From Pseudomonadota bacterium (GTDB taxonomy: Bacteria; Pseudomonadota; Gammaproteobacteria; Steroidobacterales; Woeseiaceae), in assembly GCA_022567295.1 (NCBI GenBank), contig JADFHE010000007.1, positions 22,481-58,262 on the forward strand: a stretch of 35,782 bases of DNA. The letters run 5' to 3'. This document shows, piece by piece, positions 12,023 through 31,596 of the stretch. A program made the translations under genes and the position numbers. The notes beneath the pieces were generated by a model. It saw nothing but the letters and a program-made list of their open reading frames with translations, had not been told where the DNA came from and searched no databases. Position 1 is the stretch's first letter. The number at the start of each line of letters is the position of its first letter.

Positions 12023-12032
12023 ATAATGCACG

Positions 12033-13489: not shown

Positions 13490-13572
13490 CGCCAGGACTC
13501 ATCGACATCATATTGCGGGACGGGAATCGGGTAACCGGTACCCGTCTTGCTATTAAGGGAAATATAAGACCC

Positions 13573-14400: not shown

Positions 14401-14409
14401 TTGACGATA

Positions 14410-17984: not shown

Positions 17985-18036
17985 ATCCCAATGCTACAAT
18001 GCACGCGACTGTTCTCGCAAAAATGGATTTGCGGCA

Positions 18037-18708: not shown

Positions 18709-19519
18709 CGCTGAGGCTATTCGCCGGTTCACAACCGGCGCAGCCGGCAGCAAGCTCGCACAACTCGACGTATTCGCTGAAATCGACTCAACCAACAGCT
18801 ACCTGATGCGAATGCCCGGCCCGGTGCCGGGAGCGATAAATATTGCGGCAACCAACAACCAGACCGCAGGTCGCGGACGTCACGGCAAGACCTGGCAGTC
18901 ACCGCCAGGAACCGGTTTGTGCTTGTCGGCCGCCTACACGTTTGCATCGCGGGTCGAGAATCTTCCGGCGTTGACCTTGGCACTGGGGCTCGGCGCCATT
19001 ACTGCATTGGAAGAATTAGGCGCCGTCAATGTGAAACTTAAGTGGCCGAACGATCTTGTTGCTCTGGACGGTAAGCTCGGCGGAATCCTGACTGAGGTGC
19101 AGCCGCAATCGACCAGTGCCGTTACGGTTGTCACCGGTATCGGCGTCAACGTGGACCTGAATGACAGGCACGACTTCGTCACAGAATCGGATTGGGCGCG
19201 GCACGTGGTGGATATGAAAAGTATTTGCGACTCGTTGCCTCGGACTGAGGAAATCGCAGGCAGATTGGCCACCTGTCTGCTGCAGGCATTTGTGGAATAC
19301 GAGACGTCGGGGTTCGCGGCGATCGCCGATCGCTGGTCGCGCTACGACTGGCTGCTGGGCAGGGAAATCGTTGTCGATACCGCGCGCGCTCAGATCAGCG
19401 GTGCCGGTGCCGGAATTGCCGATGATGGGGCGCTGTTGGTCGACACACTCGAATCGGGCGTTCAACGCGTGACATCCGGAACTGTCTCCGTAGCCGTCTC
19501 CACGGGTGGGCCGGTATGA
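18695..19519 (+). CDS. birA: Biotin-[acetyl-CoA-carboxylase] ligase, catalytic-only form
   Basis: The 274-aa product begins close to the catalytic domain: IDSTNSYLM (30-38), biotin/ATP loop GRGRHGKTW (59-67), KWPNDLVALDGKLGGIL (116-132), and GIGVNVDL. The C-terminal SH3-like domain ends with a DGALLVDTLESGVQRVTSGTVSV segment. The N-terminal winged-helix repressor domain of E. coli BirA (321 aa) is absent, so this is a ligase without direct operator binding. It biotinylates acetyl-CoA carboxylase carrier protein. Its ATGA overlap with coaX and position after plsY indicate one operon. Confidence 0.93.
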   Translation: MISLDAEAIRRFTTGAAGSKLAQLDVFAEIDSTNSYLMRMPGPVPGAINIAATNNQTAGRGRHGKTWQSPPGTGLCLSAAYTFASRVENLPALTLALGLGAITALEELGAVNVKLKWPNDLVALDGKLGGILTEVQPQSTSAVTVVTGIGVNVDLNDRHDFVTESDWARHVVDMKSICDSLPRTEEIAGRLATCLLQAFVEYETSGFAAIADRWSRYDWLLGREIVVDTARAQISGAGAGIADDGALLVDTLESGVQRVTSGTVSVAVSTGGPV

Positions 19520-20277
19520 GCGTGTTGTTAATGGATGTCGGCAACTTCCGCGTGAAGTGGGGTGTTCTCGATGACGGTGACATTCGCCGCACCGGTCATA
19601 TTTCGCAGGAAAAAATTCGCGAGGAAGGATTAACAGTACTAACGACGAAACTACCTCGTCACGTCGATGCGGTCCGCGCCTGTAACGTTGCTGGCACCAG
19701 TTTTGGCACCCGTTTGTCCGGTGTCATTGGCATGCATTGCAACGCCGACGTGCATTTCGCCCGCAGTGAAAGGCGTGGATGGGGCGTCACGAACAGGTAC
19801 CGGCAACCGAGACGTCTTGGTGTGGATCGCTGGGTTGCAATGATAGGGGCATGGGCTGAAACGCAATGTTCCTGTCTGATCGTCGACGCCGGTACCGCAG
19901 TCACACTGGACGCGATCGACGACGACGGCAATCATCTCGGCGGCCAGATCATTCCCGGTGTTGAAACCATGCTGCATTCATTGTCCGTGGCGACGAGTGA
20001 TGTTCCGCTCGTAAAAGGGCAACCGAAACAGTCTGCCGGGGATTTGAAGATGTTTGGGCGCAATACCGCTTCCGCTGTCCGGGAGGGCGCGCAAAATGCG
20101 ATTGCTGGTGCCGTTGATCGTGCATATCGAACTCTGCAATCAAACGGTTACGAACCCACTATCATCTTGACCGGTGGTGGCGCGTCACGCATTCTTAATG
20201 CGCTTGACGAGGCTTCGCTGCATCGGCCAAACCTGGTTCTGCATGGACTTGCACACATGCTGGAAAGTGCTCAATGA
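19516..20277 (+). CDS. coaX: Type III pantothenate kinase
   Basis: 253 aa with CoaX motifs in order: DVGNFRVKWG (7-16, ATP phosphate loop), GVDRWVAMIGAW (102-113), DAGTAVTLDAIDDDGNHLGGQIIPG (124-148) and LTGGGASRIL near the C-terminus. It catalyses the first step of coenzyme A synthesis. One oddity: the residue after DxGN is F11 where threonine or serine is usual. The start overlaps the birA stop (ATGA), and its own TGA overlaps the next start. The birA-coaX-SPOR order before tRNA genes is common in gammaproteobacteria. Confidence 0.94.
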   Translation: MSVLLMDVGNFRVKWGVLDDGDIRRTGHISQEKIREEGLTVLTTKLPRHVDAVRACNVAGTSFGTRLSGVIGMHCNADVHFARSERRGWGVTNRYRQPRRLGVDRWVAMIGAWAETQCSCLIVDAGTAVTLDAIDDDGNHLGGQIIPGVETMLHSLSVATSDVPLVKGQPKQSAGDLKMFGRNTASAVREGAQNAIAGAVDRAYRTLQSNGYEPTIILTGGGASRILNALDEASLHRPNLVLHGLAHMLESAQ

Positions 20278-20954
20278 AAAATATTCTGCTCGTTCTCCTG
20301 CTCGCCAACATTCTCTATTTTATGTGGGGTCTGCTGACCGAAGAAGAATCTCAACCAGGTGTAGCATTTGTTAAGGAATCAGACCTTGGACCGCCGCTGG
20401 ATGTCACGACCGGACGCGACAGCGACGGGGTGGATAGTGTAGGTGCTGTCCTTGGCTCGGGCGAACCGTCGGCGTTGCAGGCCATTGTTGGCCAGTCGTG
20501 TGTGACGATCGGTCCGTTCAAGGATAAACCTGATGCCGATTCCGCCGTCCTTGAGTATTCAAACGAGAGCATGAAAGCCGTGCTGCGACCGACGAGGGGA
20601 CAGATATTCGTAGGACACTGGGTGCAGATTCGCAATATCGCCGACGAAGTGACAGCCAAAGCGATGCTGGCCAAGTTAAAAACGGGTGGGTTGTCCGATG
20701 CCTACCTGGTGCGTACCGAAGATGAGGGTTTGAAGATATCGTTGGGGCTGTTTGGTGACATCAGCGGCGCCGAAAAAATCGAGCTTCAGGCGCGGTCGCT
20801 GGACCTGCCGGCTGAAATAACCGCGAGAACCCGTGAAGACAATGTGTTCTTTGTTGATATTGGACTGCCGCCGGGCAGAGGCGCTAGCGCGATCATTGAA
20901 AAATACGGTCAGGAACGCGTCCTGCTCCGCGGTGCGGCCACGTGCCCGCAATAG
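20274..20954 (+). CDS. SPOR-like membrane-anchored protein
   Basis: The 226-aa product has an N-terminal anchor (ILLVLLLANILYFMWGLL, residues 4-21) and a periplasmic remainder. Residues 78-160 (CVTIGPFKDKPDADSAV to DAYLVRTEDEGLKISLGLFG) resemble a SPOR-type domain, which in other proteins binds denuded peptidoglycan glycan strands. Its ATG overlaps the coaX stop (ATGA). Position after birA-coaX is typical for a SPOR-domain gene of this neighbourhood; the family assignment rests on pattern and context. It is the last protein gene before tRNA-Thr. Confidence 0.75.
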   Translation: MKNILLVLLLANILYFMWGLLTEEESQPGVAFVKESDLGPPLDVTTGRDSDGVDSVGAVLGSGEPSALQAIVGQSCVTIGPFKDKPDADSAVLEYSNESMKAVLRPTRGQIFVGHWVQIRNIADEVTAKAMLAKLKTGGLSDAYLVRTEDEGLKISLGLFGDISGAEKIELQARSLDLPAEITARTREDNVFFVDIGLPPGRGASAIIEKYGQERVLLRGAATCPQ

Positions 20955-21025
20955 GTGGGCAAAGTCCTTGTCAGATCGGATCGAAAAGAGAATAATCCGC
21001 TGCCCGCGCCAGAAGCGCGGCCAAA

Positions 21026-21101
21026 GCCGGCGTAGCTCAGTTGGTAGAGCAACTGATTTGTAATCAGTAGGTCCGTGGTTCGATTCCTCGTGCCGGCACC
21101 A
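21026..21101 (+). tRNA. tRNA-Thr (anticodon TGT)
   Basis: A 76-base cloverleaf with encoded CCA. Acceptor arms are GCCGGCG/TGCCGGC-A, the D arm is GCTCAGTTGGTAGAGC, the anticodon arm is CTGATTTGTAATCAG with anticodon TGT, and the T arm contains GGTTCGATTCC. In many gammaproteobacteria this gene is followed by tRNA-Tyr, tRNA-Gly and tuf. Here none follow; accessory sequence begins instead. Confidence 0.97.
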
Positions 21102-21666
21102 TATAAAACAAAAGTTTACGGGCCTATAGCGGGCCTGTTTTCTTTTAGGGTAGCAACTGGGGTAGCGTTTGGGGCAAAATTAGCACTTATTTGCTTTCAT
21201 CCACGAGTAGGCTAGATCGGCTGTCAGCCCATCAATCTGACCCTCCAAATATGACCGCTCGATCAAGTCCACCAGTTCAGGATCAGGTGGCCTGATCTAC
21301 TCAAGTATTTCGGCTAGTTCACAATGAATGCACGGCATGATCTCAGCTTGATCGACCGATGAATCACTTCCAAGTCCAGAAACTAATCAATTCCTATTGA
21401 AATGGGTCCCATCCAAGAGGGGGGGTGGGGCAATTCTTCACATCTCGAATATCGTAATGAGGGCGTCTGTCACGCCGCCGCAAAACAAAAGAGCCTCTTT
21501 CTGATTTTTCTTGAAAAACGAAAGAAGCAAATCCACGCGGCCTACGGGGGTTGGTTTCTACAATAGCAAGTTGTAAGGGAAAATCCTTCCGGTCCTAGTT
21601 CGGTTCATCGCCGAATCAGGAGAACCGCTGATACGCTCTGGCAAAGTAGAATAAGACCCTCGAGAA
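21102..21666. other. Gene-poor junction downstream of tRNA-Thr
   Basis: There is no convincing intact gene. A weak hairpin (GGGCC TATAGC GGGCC) followed by TGTTTTCTTTT at 21119-21150 may terminate the tRNA transcript. GGGTAGCAACTGGGGTAGCGTTTGGGG at 21150-21175 contains short direct repeats. On the minus strand 21198-21296 is open (for example RSYLEGQIDGLTADLAYSWM) and ends in a stop, looking like the tail of a lost gene that I cannot name. A GGGGGTGGGG run is at 21421. GC content is lower than to the left. Confidence 0.5.
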
Positions 21667-21834
21667 ATGGGAACGAACATGAAAAGCAATACAGGAAGAA
21701 TTGGCTTTACGCTCGGGACTTTGATCGCCGTGGCACTGTCATGGAGCGTCAATCACTCAATATTGTGGGCGATACTGCATGGCTTTTTGTCGTGGATTTA
21801 CGTGATCTACTACGTGCTAGGAGGTGGGCATTAG
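21667..21834 (+). CDS. 55-aa small hydrophobic membrane protein
   Basis: A short ORF with a candidate SD (GGGAACGAAC) before the internal ATG at 21679, giving 51 aa; the ATG at 21667 gives 55 aa. Two membrane segments are plausible: IGFTLGTLIAVALSW and ILWAILHGFLSWIYVIYYVL, linked by SVNHS. The NHSILWAILHGxLxWxYVIYY pattern is one I have seen in short conserved proteins of unknown function, which supports a real gene. It stands alone, with a composite repeat starting at its stop codon. Confidence 0.65.
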   Translation: MGTNMKSNTGRIGFTLGTLIAVALSWSVNHSILWAILHGFLSWIYVIYYVLGGGH

Positions 21835-21835
21835 T

Positions 21836-21977
21836 GAATGACTGCTATTGATAAAAGCGGACGTTCAAATTGCAGCCTTTGAAAACCGGCCATCCAGTGT
21901 CCGCTATACGCTCGAAAGCAGACATTAGGCTAAACTCGTCCTGAATGACCGCTAATGACCCAAAGCGGACATTCGTG
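21836..21977 (+). repeat. Composite hairpin repeat, copy a
   Basis: Contains three of the four units of the family: unit 2 (GACTGCTATTGATAAAAGCGGACGTT), unit 3 (GTCCGCTATACGCTCGAAAGCAGACATT, then the tail AGGCTAAACTCGTC), and unit 4 (GACCGCTAATGACCCAAAGCGGACATTCG). Each unit is an imperfect CCGCT...AGCGG inverted repeat. Confidence 0.85.
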
Positions 21978-22027
21978 ATCGCAGCAACTATCCTCTCTTA
22001 GAGGAATTTTTGGGGAGATTTAGCGTC

Positions 22028-22540
22028 ATGATTAAGGATTGGAAGAGTTTTGCCGAGTTGCTGGGTATTACGGCAATTGTTGCTTCTCTTATTTTTGTGG
22101 GCTTGCAGTTAAAACAGTCCCAGGCCATTGCGATATCCGAAATGGATGCGAGTCAGGTCGCAAGTTTGATCGAAGAGAACAATGCGGTAATCGGGAACAT
22201 GGATATTTGGATTCGAGGAAACGCGGATGAGAATCTGAGTCCGGCCGACGCAGAAATATACGCTCGACTGGTCACCAATATGAATAACCGATTCTATTTC
22301 ATAGTGCACCAACAGATACTTCTGGGGTTGGGTGATAACGCACTTCTGGACGTCGCTGAGTTTGCGAGTTATCTGTATGAAAATCCCCGCGCTAAACGTG
22401 TTTGGCGAGCTCGTGAGGAGCGGCTCGGGAAGTACAGAGGTATGATCAGGTCGAGTGAGACAGTGACGTCTGATTGGATCACTCTTGTTGAATCGAATAT
22501 TGCCGTCTTTGAACGACAGTCGGCAACCGCAGTTCAGTAG
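22028..22540 (+). CDS. Membrane-anchored hypothetical protein
   Basis: 170 aa from ATG 22028 (a TTG at 22010 is in frame), with GGGGAG 11 bases upstream. One N-terminal membrane segment (LLGITAIVASLIFVGLQLK, residues 12-30) is followed by QSQAIAISEMDASQ and a helical soluble domain. This layout, a short cytosolic lead, one helix ending in VGLQLKQS and a region predicted alpha-helical, is common in marine-bacterial proteins of unknown function. No catalytic motif is seen. It is flanked on both sides by composite repeats, so it forms a single-gene module. Confidence 0.75.
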   Translation: MIKDWKSFAELLGITAIVASLIFVGLQLKQSQAIAISEMDASQVASLIEENNAVIGNMDIWIRGNADENLSPADAEIYARLVTNMNNRFYFIVHQQILLGLGDNALLDVAEFASYLYENPRAKRVWRAREERLGKYRGMIRSSETVTSDWITLVESNIAVFERQSATAVQ

Positions 22541-22550
22541 TACGCATTCG

Positions 22551-22752
22551 CTCAACGACCGCTTCTGGCCGTAAGCGGCCCCTCAAAACAGGGTTTTCCA
22601 GCAGTTTGAACGTCCGCTTTCGGGAAAAGCAGACATTCACATTCATGTTTTTTGAAGTCGTTCCGGCTGATGTGAAAGAGTGATCCCGAACGACCGCTAT
22701 ACACCCGAAAGCGGTCATTACGCTAGTATTGCCCTAAAGGTCTGCTAATGAC
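22551..22752 (+). repeat. Composite hairpin repeat, copy b
   Basis: Unit 1 (GACCGCTTCTGGCCGTAAGCGGCC, near 22557), unit 2 (GTCCGCTTTCGGGAAAAGCAGACATTC), unit 3 (GACCGCTATACACCCGAAAGCGGTCATT with the tail ACGCTAGTATTGCC), and the left half of unit 4 (GGTCTGCTAATGAC), which is interrupted at about 22752 by the IS30-family element. Confidence 0.85.
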
Positions 22753-23985
22753 GGTGACCTCAACTGATCGACGCAACACTATCATCTTAACCGGAATAGA
22801 TGGAGTGATTGCAGATGAGAAGAAAATACCATCGGGTTGGTTTCACGACCGCACAGAAGACGGAGCTGTGGGACCGCTGGCAAAAGGGTGAAGGGCTTAA
22901 GTCGATTGGCAGAGCGTTCGGCAAGGGCTCGTCGTCTATTTACAGTCATTTATCACCTTATGGCGGTATTCGACCGCGGCCGCGACGACGTTCTCGGTTG
23001 TCACTGACACTGTCCGAGCGTGAAGAGATCTCCAGGGGGATTGTTGCGGCGCGCTCGATACGGTCGATTGCAAGCTCACTGCGCCGAGCACCATCGACAG
23101 TGAGTCGTGAGATTAACCGCAATGGTGGTTATAGGCAGTATCGTGCGGCGGTAGCGGATAAGCGCGCCTGGAGCGAGGCGTTACGACCCAAGCGGTGTAA
23201 GCTGGCGCGACACCCATGCTTGAGGCTCGCTGTTGAGAGAAAACTCAGACACAACTGGGCGCCGGAGCAGATCGCAGGCTGGCTGAAGCGCCGTTACCCA
23301 GACAATGAGGCGTACCACGTGTCTCACGAGACCATTTATCGCAGTTTATTTGTTCAAGCCCGCGGTGTGCTTAAGAAAGAGCTGATGAAGCATCTACGCA
23401 CGGGACGACCGATTCGTCGCTCCCGGCACGCCACAGCGAAGGCCGACCGTCGCGGGCAAATCCCCGACATGGTCTCGATCCGTGAGCGTCCAGCCTCGGT
23501 GGAGGATCGGGCGGTGCCGGGGCACTGGGAAGGGGATCTCGTCGCAGGTTCCAATAACAGTTATATGGCGACCTTAGTGGAGCGGCACACACGTTACGTG
23601 ATGTTGGCGAAGATACCGAGTCGCGACACCGAGACCGTTATCAATGCGCTCATCAAGCAGGCGAATAAACTACCGAGAGAACTCTATCGATCATTGACCT
23701 GGGATCGAGGCAAAGAGCTCACCGATCACAAACGCTTCACCCTGGCTACGGACATCAAGGTTTACTTCTGCGATCCACAAAGTCCCTGGCAACGCGGCTC
23801 AAACGAAAACACCAATCGACTATTGAGACAATACTTTCCGAAGCGTACGGACCTGTCAGTTCACTCGCAGGCGCACCTGAATTGGGTCGCCAGAGAACTT
23901 AACGAACGACCGAGAAAAACGTTAGACTTTGAAACACCGGCAGAACGATTTGCCGCATGTGTTGCATCGACCGGTTGAAATGGCA
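22753..23985 (+). mobile_element. IS30-family insertion sequence
   Basis: The element is bounded by imperfect inverted repeats: left core at 22761-22779 (CAACTGATCGACGCAACAC) and right core at 23959-23977 (GTGTTGCATCGACCGGTTG), 16 of 19 positions complementary, with weaker similarity extending outward. It contains one intact transposase. The left flank ends in half of a repeat unit (GGTCTGCTAATGAC) and the right flank begins with CCGAAAGCGG, which looks like the missing half, so it inserted into the repeat tract. The exact outer ends and target duplication cannot be fixed. Confidence 0.8.
22809..23978 (+). CDS. IS30-family transposase
   Basis: The 389-aa product has normal length and appears intact. 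The N-terminus has two helix-turn-helix regions: FTTAQKTELWDRWQKGEGLKSIGRAFGKG and SLTLSEREEISRGIVAARSIRSIASSLRRAPSTVSREINRN, the second being the typical IS30 motif. The DDE catalytic core shows GHWEGDLV (first Asp), LTWDRGKEL (second Asp) and SPWQRGSNENTNRLLRQY (Glu). The start could be ATG 22815. It probably remains functional by sequence. The 3' end overlaps the right inverted repeat, as is common in IS30 elements. Confidence 0.93.
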   Translation: MQMRRKYHRVGFTTAQKTELWDRWQKGEGLKSIGRAFGKGSSSIYSHLSPYGGIRPRPRRRSRLSLTLSEREEISRGIVAARSIRSIASSLRRAPSTVSREINRNGGYRQYRAAVADKRAWSEALRPKRCKLARHPCLRLAVERKLRHNWAPEQIAGWLKRRYPDNEAYHVSHETIYRSLFVQARGVLKKELMKHLRTGRPIRRSRHATAKADRRGQIPDMVSIRERPASVEDRAVPGHWEGDLVAGSNNSYMATLVERHTRYVMLAKIPSRDTETVINALIKQANKLPRELYRSLTWDRGKELTDHKRFTLATDIKVYFCDPQSPWQRGSNENTNRLLRQYFPKRTDLSVHSQAHLNWVARELNERPRKTLDFETPAERFAACVASTG

Positions 23986-24165
23986 GCCGAAAGCGGCCCC
24001 TCAAAACAGTGGATTTCGGGCATTCTGAACGACCGCTATTGGGAAAAGCGGCCGTTCAGCCAGGGACTTCTGAAAAATTGTTTCCGAGTGGCTGCTTTCC
24101 CCCCGGAAGCAGACATTAAGCTAGTATTGGTCCGAAGGGCCGCTACCGACCCAAAGCGGGCATGC
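23984..24165 (+). repeat. Composite hairpin repeat, copy c
   Basis: Unit 1 right part (CCGAAAGCGGCCCCTCAAAACAG, nearly the same continuation as copy b), unit 2 (GACCGCTATTGGGAAAAGCGGCCGTT), unit 3 (GGCTGCTTTCCCCCCGGAAGCAGACATT with the tail AAGCTAGTATTGGTC), unit 4 (GGCCGCTACCGACCCAAAGCGGGCAT). It directly follows the IS30-family element. Confidence 0.85.
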
Positions 24166-24225
24166 CACTTGTAAGGCGTTATCCTGTCCAAAGCCTATTA
24201 GGTAAGGAGGCGGCAACACCCTTTA

Positions 24226-24924
24226 TTGCTGCAGAGTATGCTGACCGCTATGGAAGTTCGCGCATCCGAGCCTCTTGATCGAGTGAACGCCAGGGAGATG
24301 CCCAACCTCTATTATATTCACGACCCCATGTGCAGCTGGTGCTACGCGTTCGCACCAGTGTGGAAGCACGTGCGTGAGGCGGTGGCCGGAAGGGTCACCG
24401 TGAAGACGGTACTTGGCGGCCTCGCACCAGACAGCAACGAGCCCATGCCGGAAAAAACGCAGCGTTACGTCAGGCGGGTGTGGCGACGCATCGAGAGCGT
24501 CGTACCCGGCACTGTGTTCAATTACGAATTCTGGGAGCGTTGTGAGCCGCGGCGCTCGACCTATCCTGCGTGTCGAGCAGTCATCGCCGCGCGGGATCAG
24601 GGACTGGAACACGAGAAGGCGATGATCGCCGCGATCCAGCACGCCTATTACCGCGAGGCCAGAAACCCTTCCCTCCCAGATACCCTGACGGAGATCGCCG
24701 GCGAGATCGGTCTTGATGCTCCGAGATTCGCGAACTACCTCGCAAGCGACGTCTGCGAGCAAACGCTGCAGAAAGAGATCGGACTTGCGCGCTCACTGGA
24801 TGGTCGCGGGTTCCCGAGCTTGGTCCTCGTAAGCGGGCAAGCCGGGAAGCAGTTGCACCACGACTATAACGATGCCGACCTTACCGCCCAGCGCATCGAC
24901 GAAGGCATCGCGGCACTAACTTGA
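24226..24924 (+). CDS. DsbA-family thioredoxin-fold oxidoreductase
   Basis: 232 aa from TTG 24226; in-frame ATGs at 24238, 24250 and 24298 are alternatives and the start is uncertain. An AGGAGG lies at 24205-24210. The fold starts at MPNLYYIHDPMCSWCYAFAP: the redox centre is C36-S-W-C39 (numbering from the TTG), followed by a helical insertion and the cis-proline region GRGFPSLVLVSG. The CSWC motif and lack of a clear signal peptide point to a cytoplasmic DsbA/FrnE-like thiol oxidoreductase or GST-kappa relative and not to the periplasmic folding catalyst. GC content is higher than in neighbouring accessory genes, so it probably came from a different source. Repeats lie on both sides. Confidence 0.8.
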   Translation: MLQSMLTAMEVRASEPLDRVNAREMPNLYYIHDPMCSWCYAFAPVWKHVREAVAGRVTVKTVLGGLAPDSNEPMPEKTQRYVRRVWRRIESVVPGTVFNYEFWERCEPRRSTYPACRAVIAARDQGLEHEKAMIAAIQHAYYREARNPSLPDTLTEIAGEIGLDAPRFANYLASDVCEQTLQKEIGLARSLDGRGFPSLVLVSGQAGKQLHHDYNDADLTAQRIDEGIAALT

Positions 24925-25028
24925 CAGTTACGACGGTGATGTCGGGAAGTCGGCGTCACCCTGTTTGACGCGGCCCGCGTTACTGATCACTAATGGATTG
25001 GCGGAGTTTCTTTTTGCGTTCTCGGTTG

Positions 25029-25122
25029 TGACGAACGTCCGCTTATGGTCGAAAGCAGCCGTTGAGAAACTCCATATTTCAACGTTTTGAACGACCGCTA
25101 TCGGAAAAAGCGGACGTTTGTG
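25029..25122 (+). repeat. Composite hairpin repeat, copy d (short)
   Basis: Only two units: unit 1 (GTCCGCTTATGGTCGAAAGCAGCC) and unit 2 (GACCGCTATCGGAAAAAGCGGACGTTT). Read on the minus strand, downstream of the gene at 25136-25450, it forms a strong hairpin with an internal T run (GTCCGCTTTTTCCGATAGCGGTC), so it may serve as that gene's transcript end. Confidence 0.8.
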
Positions 25123-25135
25123 GGTTCATGTCGAA

Positions 25136-25450
25136 TTATCGCTCTTCAATCGTAATGTCTTTGACTCCACCGTGGGTATTCGTCAAGCAGTTGACCTTTG
25201 CGGTACTACCCTTAGCTAATGTGACCGTTGCACGAACGGTGTAGCCGTTACTATTTTCATTGACCGCGTATACTCTAGCCGTCGATACATTGTATCGGTG
25301 GCCGATTTCAGTAATGCAGGCTTGCTCAGCAAATCCCCTGACATCATCATCATCTACCTTATCAACGTCTCGCCAATTCACCACCGCATAGATCAATCCA
25401 ACCAAGAGCGCAGCCTTAACGATGCCTTCAATAGTCTTACCGATTTTCAT
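25136..25450 (-). CDS. Small membrane-anchored hypothetical protein
   Basis: A 104-aa protein with an N-terminal helix (IVKAALLVGLIYAVVNW, residues 10-26) and an acidic linker (DVDKVDDDDVRG). A mixed alpha/beta domain with two cysteines (EQACITEIG, KVNCLTN) spaced for a disulfide follows. The composition and alternating VRATVTLAKGSTAKV strand suggest a small exported domain similar in size to a PepSY or DUF-type module, but I do not recognise it. It is a single-gene module between repeat copies d and e. Confidence 0.6.
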   Translation of the reverse strand: MKIGKTIEGIVKAALLVGLIYAVVNWRDVDKVDDDDVRGFAEQACITEIGHRYNVSTARVYAVNENSNGYTVRATVTLAKGSTAKVNCLTNTHGGVKDITIEER

Positions 25451-25892
25451 ATGATCCTAGGCCCCTTACGTGCTTTTCCTCAGGGTATTGGGACCGCGAA
25501 ACACTTGCAATAAAAAGGCCGCTACGAGAGCGGCCGCTATGCGCCCGGAAGCGGACATTGGGCTAGAATAGGCCAAAGGGTCCGCTAATGACCCTTTGCA
25601 GACGTTCAATTTTCTGACGAAATAAATATCTGCGTTTCGGGAGGGCAGACCATCGCCCAATGAGGCCACTCCGCCAGGCGAGCTGCAATTATCCCTGCAA
25701 CCCACCGTCCCCACATCAGATCGACTTGCTCCAGGTCAGCGAGTTGTCACGGCGGCACGTATATCGTTGAAACACGTCAAAAACCCGAATCCAACAAGAA
25801 AATCGAGTGGCTTCGTTCCAGGGGAGGCGGCTTACTATGTTAAGTCGAATATAGGTCCTCGAATTAACTTGATTTCCTCGATCGTCCCTTGA
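25451..25892. other. Intergenic stretch around repeat copy e
   Basis: Apart from repeat copy e there is no convincing gene. Minus-strand translations such as ADPLAYSSPMSASGRIAAALVAAF are readings of the repeat itself. 25620-25890 holds no recognisable feature. Confidence 0.5.
25516..25610 (+). repeat. Composite hairpin repeat, copy e
   Basis: A partial copy: GGCCGCTACGAGAGCGGCC, then unit 3 (CCGCTATGCGCCCGGAAGCGGACATT with the tail GGGCTAGAATAGGCC), then unit 4 (GGTCCGCTAATGACCCTTTGCAGACGTTC). It has the same orientation as all others, although it lies between genes pointing away from each other. Confidence 0.85.
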
Positions 25893-25920
25893 TTGACAAA
25901 CAATAGGAAATAAGTATACT
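25893..25920 (+). promoter_or_regulatory. Near-consensus sigma-70 promoter
   Basis: TTGACA at 25893-25898, a 16-base spacer, and TATACT at 25915-25920. Transcription would begin near 25927, giving a short leader containing AAAGGAG before the ATG at 25955. It is the strongest promoter seen in the window. Confidence 0.75.
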
Positions 25921-25954
25921 TGTTACCTCACCTTAGAGGAAAGGAGTAATTCTA

Positions 25955-26419
25955 ATGAAGCTGACGCTATCACATGCGGATGTCGCCACACTCAGCGATG
26001 CAACCAGACACGAGCTGGGTAACTTGCTAGGGCTGAATATAGGTTTGGACATCAAATCATCCGATTTTCCAGCGGATAACGAGGAGCAAAACGACGAAGC
26101 CGAAGAAATTACGTACCAGGCTTTGAAGCGATTCATGAGTGGAGTGTCCGCTAAAACAAAAAAAGTGCTGGGACTCTTTGCCGAATACGATGGGGAAACA
26201 ACGGTAAATGAAATTGAGAAAAGAATGGGTGAAGACTTTCACTGGCCTGGGTTCATGTCTGGTGTAACACGGCGGTTAAGAAAAATGACGAGTGACACAA
26301 GTGCTAAATTCTTCCATTGGGACGAGGGATCTGATAACTGGAAGAGCTGTAAAGTTTCGGTTTCTCCGATGACATGTGAGTCATTGAAAAAATATTATTC
26401 AAGCCAGAAAGGAGGCTAA
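25955..26419 (+). CDS. Hypothetical protein, first gene of a two-gene accessory operon
   Basis: 154 aa with an excellent ribosome-binding site (AAAGGAG, 8 bases before the ATG) and a near-consensus promoter. Residues 1-25 (LTLSHADVATLSDATRHELGNLLG) are helical; residues 60-120 (KTKKVLGLFAEYDG then TVNEIEKRMGEDFHWPGFMSGVTRRLRKM) look like a winged-helix fold. No catalytic residues are evident. AT-richer than the chromosomal genes, consistent with transfer. The second gene starts two bases after its stop, with its own AAAGGAGG. I do not recognise the family; a DNA-binding role is inferred. Confidence 0.7.
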   Translation: MKLTLSHADVATLSDATRHELGNLLGLNIGLDIKSSDFPADNEEQNDEAEEITYQALKRFMSGVSAKTKKVLGLFAEYDGETTVNEIEKRMGEDFHWPGFMSGVTRRLRKMTSDTSAKFFHWDEGSDNWKSCKVSVSPMTCESLKKYYSSQKGG

Positions 26420-26421
26420 TC

Positions 26422-26991
26422 ATGAATAGGAGCAGGAGCAGGGTTAGGGAAGATTATCGGCAGCACACAATCGTGGCGGCTTGGCATGAAGGAAAGTACA
26501 AAGGACGGATCACGATAGATCAAGTCGTCGTTCATAATACGGAAGGTTCTGATATTCCGGACGTTATTGAACGCTCGAGAAAATTCATCGACGAAAAGAT
26601 AGAAGTCGAGGCTCGGAGAGCTGGAACCACGCCTGATGAAGCCCGTGTGCTGGAGGGTATGCGAACGATCCTCCCGAAATTGCACGATGGCCAGCTTGCC
26701 ATGCTGAAGGCTCATTATCACGCTGAGGGCCAAGAAATCACGACGACTGAACTAGCGGATGCTGCGGGGTACGCTAACTACAGCTCAGCAAATCTACATT
26801 ACGGGATCATCGGAAAACTCTTATACGAATTGGCACCGATCAAACTTCCGGATTATGACGACGGATCATCTCCCATATACACATTTTATTTGGCGGAGGC
26901 TGCCGCAGAGTCCGATAACGAGAGCAATTGGAAATGGAAACTGAGGCCGGAAGTGTCCAAAGCGATAAAGGAACTTGGCCTGGATGCCTGA
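26422..26991 (+). CDS. Hypothetical protein, second gene of the accessory operon
   Basis: 189 aa with the SD AAAGGAGG directly upstream. N-terminal residues 1-75 are basic, including WHEGKYKGRITIDQVVV. Residues 85-140 (MLKAHYHAEGQEITTTELADAAGYANYSSANLHYGIIGKLLYEL) resemble a helical segment I have seen in proteins linked to HNH nucleases or standing alone near restriction-type loci; that recollection is weak. The C-terminus has WKWKLRPEVSKAIKELGL. With the preceding winged-helix-like gene it forms a tightly spaced pair under one strong promoter. Defence or regulation is possible; no function is claimed. Confidence 0.7.
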   Translation: MNRSRSRVREDYRQHTIVAAWHEGKYKGRITIDQVVVHNTEGSDIPDVIERSRKFIDEKIEVEARRAGTTPDEARVLEGMRTILPKLHDGQLAMLKAHYHAEGQEITTTELADAAGYANYSSANLHYGIIGKLLYELAPIKLPDYDDGSSPIYTFYLAEAAAESDNESNWKWKLRPEVSKAIKELGLDA

Positions 26992-27064
26992 ATTTGCTTC
27001 TAAGAGGCAGTGCCGCAGTTCGATATCCTAATGGTCTATGCAGTGGCTTCCAGTCTGACCGTGA

Positions 27065-27270
27065 CTGACAGCTCTTGGCCGTAAGCGGACCCTCATTTCT
27101 CTAGATTTTCCATGATCTGAACGACTGCTTTCGGTGAAAGCGGTCATTCGAAAGGTGACCTGATTTCTTCTGCTTTCCAATCACGGACGAACGTCTGCTT
27201 TACCCCCGGAAGCAGCCGTTGGGATAATATCTGGTAAAAGGTCTGCTTGTGACCCGAAGCGGACATCATC
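27065..27270 (+). repeat. Composite hairpin repeat, copy f
   Basis: All four units are recognisable: unit 1 (CTCTTGGCCGTAAGCGGACC), unit 2 (GACTGCTTTCGGTGAAAGCGGTCATTCG), unit 3 (GTCTGCTTTACCCCCGGAAGCAGCCGTT with the tail GGGATAATATCTGGT), unit 4 (GTCTGCTTGTGACCCGAAGCGGACATC). The rest of 26992-27369 holds nothing recognisable. Confidence 0.85.
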
Positions 27271-27369
27271 ACTGAGGGATGGGAACGCGAGGCAGCTCTA
27301 TAAGCACTGAGCGGCGCTTCGCCGTGGCCCCTATATACGCAGTCGATGAAGTTGCTAATGTCGGCCGGA

Positions 27370-27576
27370 TCAATCTTCCGGATCATCGTGGGGATCAAAT
27401 ACGTCGTCGATCCTCAAGTCAAACACTTCTGCCAGCTTGAAAGCCAACGGCAGAGACGGAACGTGCTTGCCATTCTCAACAGCGTTGATCGCCTGCCGGG
27501 AGACGCCAACGTGCTTGCCAAGATCAGCTTGGCTCCAGCGGCATTCGGCGCGAAGCACACGAAGCCGGTTCTTCAT
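27370..27576 (-). CDS. Xre-family small transcriptional regulator
   Basis: 68 aa from ATG 27576, which overlaps the stop of the membrane-protein gene (ATGA). The whole protein is a single HTH_3 domain: MKNRLRVLRAECRWSQADLG, recognition helix VSRQAINAVENGKHVPS, then LAFKLAEVFDLRIDDVFD, the layout of YozG/YgzD-type regulators. As the last gene of a three-ORF operon it may bind the 18-bp palindrome at its own promoter (28137-28154). A longer upstream frame to 27726 would run through the membrane-protein gene and is rejected. Confidence 0.88.
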   Translation of the reverse strand: MKNRLRVLRAECRWSQADLGKHVGVSRQAINAVENGKHVPSLPLAFKLAEVFDLRIDDVFDPHDDPED

Positions 27577-27959
27577 TTGAACCGCAACGGCACAATGCAG
27601 GAGGCGACGCCGTAGATACCAATCAATGCTGGCAGCACCCAAAGCATCGAGATATTCGGCGCGTTGATCGAGCCTTCCAAAAAGCCGTAGCCAAAGCTGG
27701 CGAAACCGACGATGCCCGCGCCCCACAAGATCGCCTCTGAAACGATCCGCCGCTGGAACTCATCCATGGCGCGGAATCTCACCACGCAGGCGCGCAAAAC
27801 ATACAGGGCGGGCAGCATTGGGGTCAGCGAGAGCGCACCAGCTAGCCATCCCGTAATTTCCATCGTCTCAATCATCCACACCGAGGCGAACAGTGTCCCG
27901 GCATAAACGAGCATCGCGACGCCGAAATGCACGAGATAGCGTTTGTTCGGATCGCTCAT
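27573..27959 (-). CDS. Four-helix membrane protein paired with an Xre regulator
   Basis: 128 aa with four hydrophobic segments: YLVHFGVAMLVYAGTLFASVWMI, TGWLAGALSLTPMLPALYVL, AILWGAGIVGFASFGYGFL, and ISMLWVLPALIGIYGVASCIV. A conserved-looking MDEFQRRIVSEA loop lies between helices two and three. Membrane proteins of this size coupled to small Xre regulators recur in bacteria, but their role is unknown to me. Its start overlaps the stop of the mini-ORF upstream, and its stop overlaps the regulator's ATG. Confidence 0.85.
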   Translation of the reverse strand: MSDPNKRYLVHFGVAMLVYAGTLFASVWMIETMEITGWLAGALSLTPMLPALYVLRACVVRFRAMDEFQRRIVSEAILWGAGIVGFASFGYGFLEGSINAPNISMLWVLPALIGIYGVASCIVPLRFK

Positions 27960-28105
27960 CGGTCCCTCCCCCCGCGATCAGCGGTCAGCACTCCGCCAAG
28001 CGCATTGGCGAACGCATCCGGTTGGTCCAGCATAATGAAGTGGCGTGAGTTGGCGATGATGAGCCAGAATGACAACTTATAAAATTTGAAGGACTTGCAG
28101 CGCAT
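27956..28105 (-). pseudogene. 49-aa ORF made from an alpha/beta-hydrolase C-terminus
   Basis: From ATG 28105 (SD AAGGAG five bases upstream) a 49-codon frame reads MRCKSFKFYKLS, then ANSRHFIMLDQPDAFANAL and GGVLTADR. The latter part is the typical end of an alpha/beta-hydrolase, carrying the catalytic-histidine region (SRHFIMLDQPDAFA); the rest of the enzyme is gone. The first ten or so codons look unrelated, so this may be the start of one ORF joined in frame to the tail of another. Its stop overlaps the next ATG (ATGA), so translation of this remnant could still drive the membrane-protein gene. It cannot be an enzyme. Confidence 0.7.
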
Positions 28106-28136
28106 GGGAACTCCTTATCAGGTTCTGCTGACTTAT

Positions 28137-28154
28137 TGTAAGGTTAACCTTACA
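28137..28154. promoter_or_regulatory. Perfect 18-bp palindromic operator
   Basis: TGTAAGGTTAACCTTACA overlaps the -10 region of a minus-strand promoter. It is the best candidate binding site for the Xre regulator encoded at the end of the same operon. Confidence 0.7.
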
Positions 28155-28187
28155 TATGAATCTCAAGGATGTCAAGTTCTCTTGACA
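28147..28187 (-). promoter_or_regulatory. Promoter of the mini-ORF / membrane protein / Xre operon, with a second inverted repeat
   Basis: On the minus strand TTGACA (28175-28170), a 17-base spacer and TAAGGT (28152-28147) form a good promoter ahead of the SD and ATG at 28105. The -35 box is one arm of a second inverted repeat, TGTCAAG-TTCT-CTTGACA (28170-28187), which puts a TTGACA on each strand. Confidence 0.65.
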
Positions 28188-28359
28188 TTTTTTCCGGACC
28201 TGCAAACACTATTATTGTCAACGATGCGCCGGTTGAGTCCTTGCTGATTGACTCCAAAGGTCACGGCTCCATCAACCGTGAAAATCATATCGAGCCGTTT
28301 GATGGCAGGTTCAGACGTAACGACAAATACTGATCCTGTGACGATACGAGTCCATCATC

Positions 28360-28556
28360 CAATGTCCGCTTTTGGCCGAAAGCGGACTATCGGTTTCGTG
28401 GTGTCGGTTCGGTTTCAATGACCGCTATTGAGTAAAGCGGACATTCAGAAATGGCAATCTTGACCGGGCTGGTTGAACGACCGCTATACGCTCGAAAGCA
28501 GACATTGAGCTACACTTGGTCTTAACGTCCGCTAGTGACCCAAAGCAGACATTCGT
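28360..28556 (+). repeat. Composite hairpin repeat, copy g
   Basis: The most complete copy, with all four units: unit 1 (GTCCGCTTTTGGCCGAAAGCGGAC, a perfect-armed hairpin), unit 2 (GACCGCTATTGAGTAAAGCGGACATTC), unit 3 (GACCGCTATACGCTCGAAAGCAGACATT with the tail GAGCTACACTTGGTC), unit 4 (GTCCGCTAGTGACCCAAAGCAGACATTCG). Units 3 and 4 are closely similar to copy a. Confidence 0.88.
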
Positions 28557-28644
28557 GGATTCAAGAAAATCGGGGTTCAATGGCACGCCTTATTTAATAG
28601 AAAATGCCCTTTTCAAAACAACCAATTGGGAACTCTACTTATAG

Positions 28645-28981
28645 TTAGGCAATTTAGGCCGAGGAGGAGAGATGGCAGATGAAGCACACAATGAAAAGTT
28701 GATAGGCCTTTGGACAGGATTGGGAGTCGCATTCGGAGCCGCCTTCGGGGCTGCGTTCCAGAACGTGGTTATGGGCGTCGCCGGGGGCATCGTGATCGGC
28801 GCAGTAATTGGAATAATTCTTTCAGGTAGGGCGAAGTCCGATGCTAAGAGCGATGAGGAGCAAAGTGATTGAGCCTGATCTGATGGGCCCGTCTCGAGCG
28901 GCATATCCGGAGCCAGTTGCCTAACATGGCGTTCAACAGGACCTTCACAAGCTTCACTTGTTCCTGCCTGTTAACTCAGCG
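28645..28981 (+). mobile_element. Solitary integron gene cassette
   Basis: The boundaries follow the integron rule: G/TTAGGC at 28644-28650 opens the cassette, one gene follows, then an attC whose outer R'' box GCCTAAC (28919-28925) is the exact complement of GTTAGGC, and the cassette closes at G/TTAGTG (28981-28987). At 337 bases it is a typical size. No integrase gene or attI is visible in the window, and no second attC was found. Confidence 0.8.
28672..28872 (+). CDS. Cassette-borne 66-aa glycine-zipper membrane protein
   Basis: The SD GAGGAGGAGAG precedes the ATG. The protein has a short polar lead (MADEAHNEKLIG) and two hydrophobic glycine/alanine-rich stretches, GLGVAFGAAFGAAFQNVV and GVAGGIVIGAVIGIILSG, with GxxxG-type spacing, then a charged tail KSDAKSDEEQSD. 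Such glycine-zipper proteins insert into or associate with membranes; the function is unknown. It is the only gene in the cassette and has the usual orientation with attC downstream. Confidence 0.82.
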   Translation: MADEAHNEKLIGLWTGLGVAFGAAFGAAFQNVVMGVAGGIVIGAVIGIILSGRAKSDAKSDEEQSD

Positions 28982-28987
28982 TTAGTG
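28919..28987 (+). other. attC: attC (59-base-element) recombination site
   Basis: 69 bases with paired boxes: GCCTAAC (R'') with GTTAGTG (R'), and GTTCAACAGG with CCTGTTAAC, which pair fully except for one extra C, the extrahelical base that sets strand choice for integron integrases. The inner stem ACAAG/CTTGT closes a small loop. The order and spacing match attC sites such as that of aadA cassettes. Confidence 0.88.
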
Positions 28988-29004
28988 TCCGCTTGTTGAT
29001 CTTG

Positions 29005-29310
29005 TATCGGTTTCTCGGACATTACATCCGTGAACGCAATGTGCTCAGTCTCGAAGCGGGCATTCGGAAAATGACCTCGCTCTCCGCCCAGCAGGTCGGG
29101 ATCGTTGAGCGTGGCTCGATCCAGGTAGGTCACTACGCGGACCTGGTTTTGTTTGACCCCGATACGGTGGCAGACCGCTCGACGCCCGAAGCCCCTCATG
29201 TAACTTCGGTGGGTATTGAAAAGGTCTGGGTCAATGGTCAATTGGTGTTGGACGGCGGCGAAGTCACGGGCAACCGGCCCGGCAAGCCGATTCGGCGAGC
29301 CAGCCCCTGA
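29005..29310 (+). pseudogene. C-terminal fragment of N-acyl-D-amino-acid deacylase (amidohydrolase)
   Basis: The open frame reads YRFLGHYIRERNVLSLEAGI, RKMTSLSAQQVGIVERGSI, VGHYADLVLFDPDTVADRST and VNGQLVLDGGEVTGNRPGK: the conserved last hundred residues of D-aminoacylases. The metal-binding N-terminal 380 or so residues are absent. The homology starts about 20 bases after the integron attC boundary, so the truncation is associated with the cassette junction. There is no start signal; the ORF's TTG is not credible. Confidence 0.85.
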
Positions 29311-29508
29311 GTGTGACCGACACCCCGAAGAGATTTAGCGAAGGAACCATCATGGGAAACTCCTGGCAGCAACAGCTCGAAGCGCATAGGCAGTGGCGAT
29401 TTTTACTCGCCTGAAGACTATCGAGCTAACGTATACTATTCGTAGACGCAGAAAAACAATATCGGCGTCCGCACCGGGGCCCGGTCGGCGACAATCTGGA
29501 GCAACAAC
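29311..29508. other. Intergenic region ahead of the beta-propeller operon
   Basis: Contains TATACT (29431-29436) as a possible -10 without a convincing -35, and a 20-codon frame (29352-29414, MGNSWQQQLEAHRQW) with a GGAA in front that may be the beginning of a lost gene. Nothing else was recognised. Confidence 0.35.
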
Positions 29509-31596
29509 TTGAATAATCCAAGCACAGGCACTTTAGTAGTTTTTCTTTCCTTCTTGATGTCAGCAGAACTATCGGCGCAGACGTATCCGACGGTAGAGAT
29601 TGAGCCTTCGACGTTGGAGCTCAAAGTAGGGGACACTGTCCAGCTCAAAGGAGTGGTCAAAGATGCGGATGGAAAAATCGTCCCGGATGCTCAGGTGCTT
29701 TTCTTTGGGCCACGAATCAACCTGACAGTGACGCCGGGCGGCCTGGTGACGGCCATTCATCCTGGAGATCATAAGGTGACGGCGCTGTCTCCCACGGAGC
29801 GCATTGAGGGCGAACCCGATAGCTATACCCGGTCGTGGGAGGCCGGTATCCGCGGCAAGCTTGATATCGTCGTACCCGAGCCACCGCTCAGCAGCATTCA
29901 GATCGAGGGCATACCGGACGTGCTCTACGTGGGTACGACAGCGGCCCTTCGTGTTAGTGGAATCGATGAATCCGGCGCCGAGCGGCATGACCTGGCCCCG
30001 ACTTTCACGGTCAGCAGGAGCGGCACAGCCGAAACCGACGGATTTGGCACCGTCACTGGACTCAAACCGGGGGCCATCACCATTATGGCAACCGTCGATG
30101 AAGTCGAGGCAACGGCTGCGATCATCGTAAAGGCAAACCCGATTCATTTCATCGAGCTCACCGCATCTGAGACGGATGCCCGAACCGGCGATGTGATTCA
30201 TTTCAACGTCGTCGCGCGGGATAGAAAGGGCGCGATTGTTCACGATGTGCCCATTGAATATTCGCTGCGCAGTAGTCCCGACCCCGATCATCCGGAAGCA
30301 CGCGGGGCCGGAGCATCCGCAATGATTCTTGACGATGGTCGTTTCGTCGCCGAGCAACAGGGCATCTACACCGTGGTCGCGATGTCCGGCAGCGCCGTTG
30401 CTCGGGCCAGCGTCCGGATTGAGCGGCGCGATGTGATACGCGAATTCGAATTCCTTGGCCAGGCCAGACGGTCCGACCACTTGACGTCCGATTTCTGGAT
30501 CTGGGAAGGCGTGGACGGTCGGGACTACGCCATCGTTGGCAGTTGGGGCGGACCGGGAAAAATTTATTTCTACGACGTGACTGATCCCACCGAAATGGAA
30601 CTGATCGACACCGTCCAGGTGGACGCGCGCACAGTTAACGACGTCAAGATTTCCGAGGACGGCCGCATTGCTGTGATCAGCCGGGAAGGGGCATCAAATC
30701 GCAGGAACGGCATCGTCATTCTTGACGTTAGCGATCCTCGCGACGTAAAAATTCTGTCTACTTTCGACGACCAACTGACAGGGGGCGTGCACAACGTTTT
30801 CATTTACGAAAATCACGTGTACGCAGTGAACAACGGGCGCCGCTGGGATGTGATCAATATTGACGACCCGAGCAAACCGTCGCGCGTAAGCCGCTTCGAA
30901 ACCACTACTCCGGGCCGTTCGGTGCACGATGTCTGGGTTCGGGACGGCATCTTGTATCAGGCGGGCAGAACGGACGGCATCATCGTGGTCGACGTAGGTG
31001 GCGGTGGCGATGTTGGACCTGGCGGTTCTCCCGAACATCCGGTTGAAATGGGGCGTGCCGATCAAATAACCGGTTGGAATCATGCGGTGTGGCCCATGAA
31101 GAGCAGTTCCGCCGGGAAGACGTATGTCTTCGCCGGTGACGAGACGTTTTATGACAATCCCCGTGTTCCCGAAACGCTGGCGTATGATCCGGATGAGAAA
31201 ATTCCGTCTCGAGCGGGTGGCTGGGTTCACGTTATCGAATTCGATGACCCGGCACATCCGCAAGAAGTTGCTCAGTACAAAGTTGGCGATTTCGGCGTGC
31301 ACAATTACTGGATCGACTGGGAAGCCGAACTCATGTACGTCGCCTACTACCAGGGTGGACTGCGCGTCCTCGACGTGTCCGGCGAGTTGCTCGGAGACCT
31401 GTATGCGCAAGGACGGGAAGTTGGCAGCTTTTACTCGGCTGATCCCGAAGGTTTTATTCCGAATGCGGCCATGGTCTGGGGGCCACAGCCACACAAGGGG
31501 ACCATTTTCTTCACCGACCATCACAGTGGTCTCTGGGCGGTTCGCCTGAAGGAAAAAGACGAGGAAGATAAAGAGGCGGGGTCGGCGGGCCCATGA
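29509..31596 (+). CDS. Secreted protein with Ig-like domains and LVIVD-type beta-propeller
   Basis: 695 aa starting at TTG 29509, supported by GGAG eight bases upstream and an immediate signal peptide (GTLVVFLSFLMSAELSAQ). Residues 25-300 form about three bacterial Ig-like modules, each opening with a pattern such as IEPSTLELKVGDTVQLKGVV or LTASETDARTGDVIHFNVVA. Residues 310-680 form LVIVD-type repeats: KIYFYDVTDPTEMELID, GIVILDVSDPRDVKIL, WDVINIDDPSKPSRVS, GGLRVLDVSGE. It is probably an exported binding or scaffolding protein. The end overlaps the next start (ATGA). Confidence 0.82.
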   Translation: MNNPSTGTLVVFLSFLMSAELSAQTYPTVEIEPSTLELKVGDTVQLKGVVKDADGKIVPDAQVLFFGPRINLTVTPGGLVTAIHPGDHKVTALSPTERIEGEPDSYTRSWEAGIRGKLDIVVPEPPLSSIQIEGIPDVLYVGTTAALRVSGIDESGAERHDLAPTFTVSRSGTAETDGFGTVTGLKPGAITIMATVDEVEATAAIIVKANPIHFIELTASETDARTGDVIHFNVVARDRKGAIVHDVPIEYSLRSSPDPDHPEARGAGASAMILDDGRFVAEQQGIYTVVAMSGSAVARASVRIERRDVIREFEFLGQARRSDHLTSDFWIWEGVDGRDYAIVGSWGGPGKIYFYDVTDPTEMELIDTVQVDARTVNDVKISEDGRIAVISREGASNRRNGIVILDVSDPRDVKILSTFDDQLTGGVHNVFIYENHVYAVNNGRRWDVINIDDPSKPSRVSRFETTTPGRSVHDVWVRDGILYQAGRTDGIIVVDVGGGGDVGPGGSPEHPVEMGRADQITGWNHAVWPMKSSSAGKTYVFAGDETFYDNPRVPETLAYDPDEKIPSRAGGWVHVIEFDDPAHPQEVAQYKVGDFGVHNYWIDWEAELMYVAYYQGGLRVLDVSGELLGDLYAQGREVGSFYSADPEGFIPNAAMVWGPQPHKGTIFFTDHHSGLWAVRLKEKDEEDKEAGSAGP

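Follow-up and report, generated by a model that had tools for sequence, protein, structure and literature searches.

In integrons, mostly unknown genes stand one by one in an array, separated by co-oriented dyad sites, attC, which bear the boxes RYYYAAC (R'') and GTTRRRY (R') and are conserved as a fold, through compensating changes, and not as sequence. A tyrosine recombinase serves these arrays, some arrays lack the enzyme, and chromosomal ones keep a fixed place. The dif/pdif modules of Acinetobacter carry one or a few genes between short core sites with inverted arms, served by the simple tyrosine recombinases XerC and XerD, and the FimB/FimE invertases, of about 200 residues and nearly catalytic domain alone, likewise work on short inverted arms. 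Here we compare with these systems a series of composite hairpin repeats that separate accessory genes in a 35,782-nt stretch of contig JADFHE010000007.1 (hereafter the window, from the Woeseiaceae genome G000). We propose that the composites are the recombination sites of a mobile gene-cassette system other than an integron, and that a 208-residue tyrosine recombinase, Int208, would be its enzyme. Judging from sequence comparison, we give this reading a probability of roughly 0.78.

The first-pass annotation of the window had described seven co-oriented copies (a-g) of up to four hairpins in a fixed order, with a conserved tail after the third and accessory genes with a copy on each side. Reading of positions 21001-29500 together with repeat finding confirmed the repeats, and both the positions and the orientation held (best score on the plus strand for 7/7 copies). 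The count did not: copies d and e are one composite, interrupted between its second and third units by a minus-strand open reading frame (ORF; 25136-25450), so that the window has six composites. Each comprises up to four dyad units (u1-u4) of the form GNCYGCT-N(7-11)-AGCRGNC, with a spacer of about 9 bp that often has a GGCC or GACCC core. Alignment gave the order u1-u2-u3-tail-u4 in all copies, with u1 CCGCTTTTGGCCGAAAGCGG, about 55 bp, u2 GACCGCTATTGGGAAAAGCGGACATTC, about 60-80 bp, u3 CCGCTATACGCCCGAAAGCRGACATT, a conserved tail around GGCTAGTATTGG, and u4 GTCCGCTAATGACCCAAAGCGGACATTC. An IS30-like element (ORF 22809-23978) stands between the left half of a u4 and the right half of a u1, and its presence there is the reason why composite b has no right half of u4 and composite c no left half of u1. 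Every interval between the six composites holds one gene or small operon, and the first-pass remark on minus-strand peptides of the MSASG(H/R) kind fits, copy a reading ATGTCCGCTTTGGGTCATTAG, MSALGH, on that strand. A covariance model of u3 and u4 recovers its six source copies at E 3e-25 or better, by construction; since it also scores many copies in the same genome outside the window comparably, a chance origin of the repeats is excluded. By eye, degenerate dyad-like pieces (GTGTCCGCTTG..., CGAAGCGGGCATTCGG) can be seen after copy g at 28975-29070, perhaps one more decayed site.

Exchange of genes at such dyads is clearest on plasmids that carry Int208. Across six Pantoea plasmid records, the end of a uraH module was joined to four partners and the end of the Int208 segment to three, both at TGTGCCA/NWAGCG (the slash marks the joint), and the start of Int208 was preceded by three different neighbours at GTCYGCTNNT/CGCTCAT. 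Before a VOC/YafY module on these plasmids stood either Int208 or, with nothing between, the uraH module, and the DNA after it differed in the three records seen. The full Pantoea joint, GTCCGCTTTGTGCCAGAAGCGGAC, matches the window units (GTCCGCT..AAGCGGAC) in its arms and in their spacing. On Phaeobacter and Roseovarius plasmids (eight records), the end of a type IV secretion system (T4SS) gene (..CGGCCCA) was joined to five right-hand partners, namely a metallophosphoesterase segment (L312), a hypothetical gene (L316), two hypothetical genes (L317), a hydrolase with Int208 (L311) and other DNA (L318). The metallophosphoesterase segment (..CGGCCCATTACGG) itself followed the T4SS gene, Int208, either hypothetical or RtcR (L315), and the hydrolase with Int208 also stood between other neighbours in L313 and L314. 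All of these joints fall at CGGCCC(A), and the roughly 7 bp common to them would be too little for homologous recombination. Int208 probably catalyses the exchange, other recombinases having been sought near the joints in the annotation only.

Precise exchange at a unit, which had been proposed as a check on a cassette role, was thus found on Int208-carrying plasmids and not among the window's own cassettes. Within the clade, BLAST matched 22677-25131 of the window at 99.0% to the start of a contig of G044, a genome of another family; the near-identity starts within u4, where the IS30-like element has its left end, and the preceding composites differ. Two copies of one segment in G044 (L085 versus L172) differ by an exact loss between the centres of u3 and u4 that leaves a hybrid dyad. 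The boundary and the loss would both fit a crossover at the dyad centre; because the boundary is also the end of an insertion sequence, these own-clade cases are weaker evidence than the plasmids. In a further pair, L041 and L089, 91% alike over 740 bp, no boundary coincides exactly with a dyad, and the pair speaks neither for nor against.

Sites and the Int208 gene are also found together. The single-contig genome G102 has 21 exact occurrences of the pattern ATGNCCGCTNTTGNGCCG, against 0 of a reversed control. Of the 21, 12 fall in the 8 kb leading to one Int208 gene and 4 in the 3 kb leading to the other (16/21 within 8 kb of the two genes); a third cluster has 4, and 1 is solitary. The nearest site is 43 bp from the Int208 match at both genes, and one arm is constant in the array while the other differs between cassettes. 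One stretch of this genome (L162 815-5655 and 7027-9856) consists of two opposed halves of sites and genes that diverge at about 5.7-7.0 kb, with Int208 at one end only. Two 96%-alike copies overlapping tRNA-Met (L161 3120-3170 and 10847-10897) flank one of its Int208 arrays, as would be seen if that array were part of an island.

The neighbourhood of Int208 was examined at 80 loci of named genomes. The half-site GRCCNNWAGCNGNC (at most one mismatch) was present within 150 bp downstream at 41/77 loci, compared with 536/14,815 background windows (3.6%), three loci with a shorter downstream stretch having been dropped and many being from Pseudomonas and so not phylogenetically independent. A strict whole-dyad regular expression found few complete dyads (42, versus 3.4 in shuffles; 56 versus 0 with a second pattern), and self-BLAST found repeated stretches at 7/80 loci, some of them no arrays, which we attribute to an outer arm that is often unconserved. 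Many Pseudomonas loci share a conserved Int208 block from GGCCGGTTAGCGACC upstream to GTCGCTAACCGGCC downstream, beyond which come arm-like bases in many (not all) loci and then unrelated DNA. On Pseudomonas aeruginosa plasmids Int208 forms a 737-bp block, 88.7% identical between plasmids with different flanks, that ends at TTGGCC and GGCC. Similar site halves lie on either side of the Int208 gene in G044, and inverted u3-tail-u4 copies on either side of that in G000. A Pseudoalteromonas spongiae plasmid (L274 5770-15342) has, beside Int208, an array of mainly single-gene cassettes and a 116-nt two-dyad repeat with a variable left arm and a constant right half.

Int208 was identified in a Pfam integrase search of eight genomes, which found short tyrosine recombinases inside arrays, this one in those of G000:C11 and G026:C11. 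It carries the PF00589 catalytic domain, and R59, H156-R159, H182 and Y191, invariant in 8 aligned sequences, are presumably its catalytic R, H-x-x-R, H and Y. The nearest solved structures are Xer-type proteins (E 1e-7), and the match to XerA begins near residue 40, suggesting that a full core-binding domain is absent; an AlphaFold model has a mean predicted local distance difference test score of 64, with residues 160-208 under 50. Int208 falls far below the cut-offs of the XerC/D models, and it scored 19 and 22 bits with the integron-integrase model in two of three scans and was unlisted in the third (cut-off 265 bits). As far as the descriptions in PMC8138268 go, none of the simple-recombinase subgroups named there (Xer, Rit, TnpA, integron, TnpR, IntBrujita, Arch, Cyan, Cand and IntKX) fits it. 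The protein was found in 15/274 sampled genomes of the class (own included, some partial), at least 571 stretches of a species-genome collection, 417/72,556 plasmid records and 3/50,697 phage records, in Gamma-, Beta- and Alphaproteobacteria according to record titles. Among 60 genomes compared it was matched in 8 and near full length in 6 (G000, G026, G044, G036, G007 and G011), and repeat counts were higher where it was present (median 32.5 versus 2; Mann-Whitney p 0.0056, with the fragments in G016 and G032 counted as absence). Elsewhere, Int208 lies beside Drt2 and a restriction-modification cluster on a Photobacterium damselae plasmid (L275 6182-16159), and near phn/ptxD, copper and cobalamin genes, as well as genes for metal efflux, phosphite use and defence.

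Arrays of these repeats recur well beyond the window. Copy g matched 44 places on 17/82 contigs of G000 by BLAST, mostly clustered, and the u3+u4 model added weaker copies on further contigs, some solitary. Many contig ends of this genome (C72, C68, C32, C33, C11, C20, C54, C75, C61 and C81) lie about 1.5 kb or nearer to a repeat, as if strains differed there or alike composites had broken the assembly. The model matched in 39 of the 60 genomes, own included, again mostly in clusters. Among arrays examined from seven genomes of the order, 93/120 neighbouring repeats less than 3 kb apart were on the same strand (clusters with strand scores under 3 bits apart dropped), with p 6e-10 if pairs were independent, which those of related arrays are not. 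The clearest array, on G010:C14, has 25 matches at 11,967-31,156, of which one is a piece of 36 bp; all score best on the minus strand, the repeat has two dyads, and most neighbours have one minus-strand ORF between them. The model used there was seeded on the minus strand, and the one from the window's genome also reads 17/18 repeats of the array core that way. Of about 30 ORFs in this array 20 were scanned against Pfam, and 18 had no family. The core genes and tRNA-Thr(tgt) that adjoin the window array also adjoin those of G010 and G018, and between the three we found no DNA match of 220 bp or more and no common cassettes at the DNA level. A consensus of 52 complete composites, the full-length matches among 98 at loci of G000, G026, G034 and G013, has sharp ends with unconserved DNA outside.

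The arms of the units do not covary. Among 277 units fitting the strict pattern, the combinations of the variable Y/R pair numbered 140, 54, 54 and 29 (Fisher p 0.25), and the outer base was paired 92 times versus 105 expected. Dyads that worked as folded strands should have covarying arms; the sites are therefore probably read as duplex DNA, where independent arms would be expected if the two halves of a site derive from different parents, and the substrate would then be double-stranded DNA. We propose that each dyad unit serves as a core site whose two inverted arms bind the recombinase, and that strand exchange would take place mid-dyad. A cassette would be the stretch between the middles of consecutive sites, and recombination between two sites would excise, insert or swap the intervening gene, and the site left behind would be complete, each parent having supplied one of its arms. 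The outcome would be co-oriented arrays of single genes at a fixed place, here beside tRNA-Thr. The likeliest enzyme is Int208, Xer-like with its catalytic residues kept and apparently without the full core-binding domain. The copy coded elsewhere in G000 would act on the window in trans, and the four-unit composites would be used as the plasmid sites are.

Several observations weigh against this proposal. The window itself has no Int208, and none was detectable in many array-bearing relatives (G010, G034, G013 and G018), draft genomes whose arrays could be enzyme-less; within the genus the link between Int208 and repeat count is unclear (13 versus 5, p 0.14). Most of the 80 Int208 loci lack a long array, and the outer left arm is unrecognisable on the two P. 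aeruginosa plasmids. Only the core and, loosely, the right arm are preserved at the Phaeobacter joints, most left arms being unrecognisable as GNCYGCT, so that their likeness to the window dyad, based on core and right arm, is weaker than that of Pantoea. Orientation is mixed in G018, where only 2/8 pairs are co-oriented, and some copies in G000 are solitary (weak matches, for example on C40, C41, C56 and C2). The arms of the outermost units are themselves conserved in G000 and its near relatives, and the crossover point there cannot therefore be read from conservation. A search for the window's cassettes in the 60 genomes returned mainly IS30 copies; apart from the IS30/DsbA block hardly any of the cassettes turned up in these relatives, and hence we saw no case in which a window cassette had been precisely gained or lost. 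Nor was any excision circle or recombination activity seen.

An ordinary or decayed integron array, with attC sites moved by IntI, would account for single, small, mostly unknown genes (as in the G010 array) that are co-oriented at a fixed locus. An intI gene, split, is present in G000 (contig C3), and the repeat-rich G044 has an above-cut-off intI on C1, about 57 kb from its repeats. We nevertheless regard this origin as very improbable. The first-pass annotation had judged the repeat not to be an attC, and 7/7 copies have no RYYYAAC...GTTRRRY pair, which refutes an integron unless IntI cuts a divergent class of attC; intI (TIGR02249) is above cut-off in 11/60 genomes, within the genus only in G027, which has 0 repeats, and its presence is not tied to them (p 0.997). 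The proposed recombinase is also shorter and of another family than IntI, to judge from the low integron-integrase scores, and, unlike integrons, the system has arms without covariation (suggesting double-stranded sites), exchange in the dyad centre, and inverted sites on both sides of the recombinase gene. The split intI lies in two frames at G000:C3:29034-29908, on a contig with no listed repeats, and a related genome also has an integron integrase gene split into two frames (G031:C16:34476-35296). A cassette system whose enzyme is instead a host Xer protein or a FimB-like recombinase, with Int208 as a passenger, is unlikely, if easier to entertain. Such a FimB-like protein of 223-245 residues (Int223), possibly an auxiliary, a competing enzyme or itself a cassette, does lie beside repeats in G044 and G010 (L085 3735-4406, minus strand; L101 8432-9169, plus strand), and dif modules use host XerCD; yet the association of Int223 with repeat count is unclear (p 0.089), whereas Int208 is bounded by sites over many taxa and twice lies 43 bp from an array end in G102.

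The hairpins might also be mobile in themselves, as non-autonomous elements of the miniature inverted-repeat transposable kind moved by Int208, a transposase or a RAYT (a transposase associated with repetitive extragenic palindromic, REP, sequences), the genes between them being old neighbours. Their abundance and the sharp edges of the 52 composites, with no conservation outside, are compatible with this. We consider it, also a suggestion of the first pass, improbable, because on plasmids entire genes are gained and lost next to a site that persists, clustered copies share a strand, and the repeat-rich G010, G034, G044 and G018 have no Y1 transposase match. REP and bacterial interspersed mosaic elements are likewise numerous intergenic palindromes in mosaic order. 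A REP/RAYT system was rejected on the same search and on the lack of a link between such transposases and repeat count, in agreement with the earlier judgement that the repeat is not REP; clustering and module exchange at dyads set it apart further. The repeat could conceivably be identical with Rhizobium RIME elements. Transcription terminators or RNA elements after each gene, the first-pass annotation's other option, are scarcely credible: the dyads are strong and intergenic, and two of the seven terminator-like stretches found coincide in part with copies e and f, but seven is no enrichment over shuffles (7.0), the arms do not covary, and breakpoints at dyad centres are unexpected for terminators. 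No Rfam family other than tRNA exceeded its gathering score in 21000-29500, the asX2 match at 25447-25536, touching copy e, reaching 23.5 bits against 70. What favours a recombination site that collects genes, which had also been put forward, is the conjunction of clustered, co-oriented repeats, single genes between them and an array-borne recombinase bounded by like sites.

The preferred reading, a site-specific cassette system with Int208 as its enzyme, sets the locus beside two further known systems. The dyad sites are, we assume, unrelated in sequence to dif. Like the Acinetobacter modules, those described here appear to attract target-seeking insertion sequences: IS1202-family elements are described as seeking pdif sites (PMC10132070), and the IS30-like elements seem to target dyads. 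The present system differs in having its own recombinase gene inside it, long co-oriented arrays, and a wide distribution that takes in Gamma-, Beta- and Alphaproteobacteria. At four places IS30-like elements with about 70% likeness to one another stand at dyads (window 22753-23982; L031 11158-12404; L281 about 1501-2730; L094 6713-7935), the arm halves being clear on both sides in the window and L031 and one-sided or weaker in L281 and L094. FimB and FimE share the small, almost purely catalytic recombinase and the short inverted arms, but Int208 reaches only 19-35 bits with two NCBIfam invertase models (cut-offs 221-222), and it would work on many sites and exchange genes where the invertases flip one switch at one pair. 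The composites, the elements between them and the array-edge tRNA genes are listed in Table 1.

Table 1. Composites, intervening genes and array edge in the window, with the corresponding tRNA genes of two further loci
Feature	Coordinates	Strand	Description
Composite a	21837..21977	+	u2-u3-tail-u4, without u1; from alignment and model match
Composite b	22554..22752	+	u1-u2-u3-tail and left half of u4; right end truncated by IS30-like element
Composite c	23983..24166	+	Right half of u1, then u2-u3-tail-u4
Copy d	25034..25120	+	u1-u2 half of split composite
Copy e	25526..25610	+	u3-tail-u4 half of the composite whose other half is d
Composite f	27064..27270	+	Complete u1-u4
Composite g	28361..28557	+	Complete u1-u4
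Cassette gene, 176 aa	22010..22540	+	No Pfam family
IS30-like insertion sequence	22753..23982	+	Transposase ORF 22809-23978; Pfam rve and HTH_38; ends approximate, placed by reading the sequence and by other copies
Cassette gene, DsbA/thioredoxin-like, 232 aa	24226..24924	+	Within block 99% identical to G044 (other family)
Cassette gene, 104 aa	25136..25450	-	Unknown protein; between halves d and e
Two-gene cassette (154 aa and 189 aa)	25955..26991	+	No Pfam family
Cassette, HTH_3 regulator and 128-aa protein	27370..27959	-	
tRNA-Thr(tgt)	21026..21101	+	Conserved array edge in three species; same edge in G010 and G018
tRNA-Thr(tgt), L099	12517-12592		Array edge
tRNA-Thr(tgt), L095	9319-9394		Array edge

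Together with the plasmids, these arrays likely represent a third natural cassette system in Proteobacteria and their plasmids, one that would use a minimal 208-residue tyrosine recombinase and double-stranded dyad sites with a central crossover, independently of IntI, attC and Xer, its sites comprising one dyad (G102), two (G010 and the Pseudoalteromonas plasmid) or four (the window). We found no description of an Int208 and dyad cassette system in the open-licence literature of PubMed Central, a scope that leaves out most subscription papers and bioRxiv; as far as seen, the system is apparently undescribed, though not certainly new. Integrons are the textbook platform for gene capture, and if our reading is true they would have a parallel with its own enzyme and sites. 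Many single-gene insertions on plasmids of Pseudomonas, Pantoea, rhizobia and Roseobacter, which current annotation leaves unconnected, would be explained by such a system, and it would supply a marker for locating accessory genes. It would also offer a simple test case for site recognition by a recombinase that lacks a full core-binding domain.

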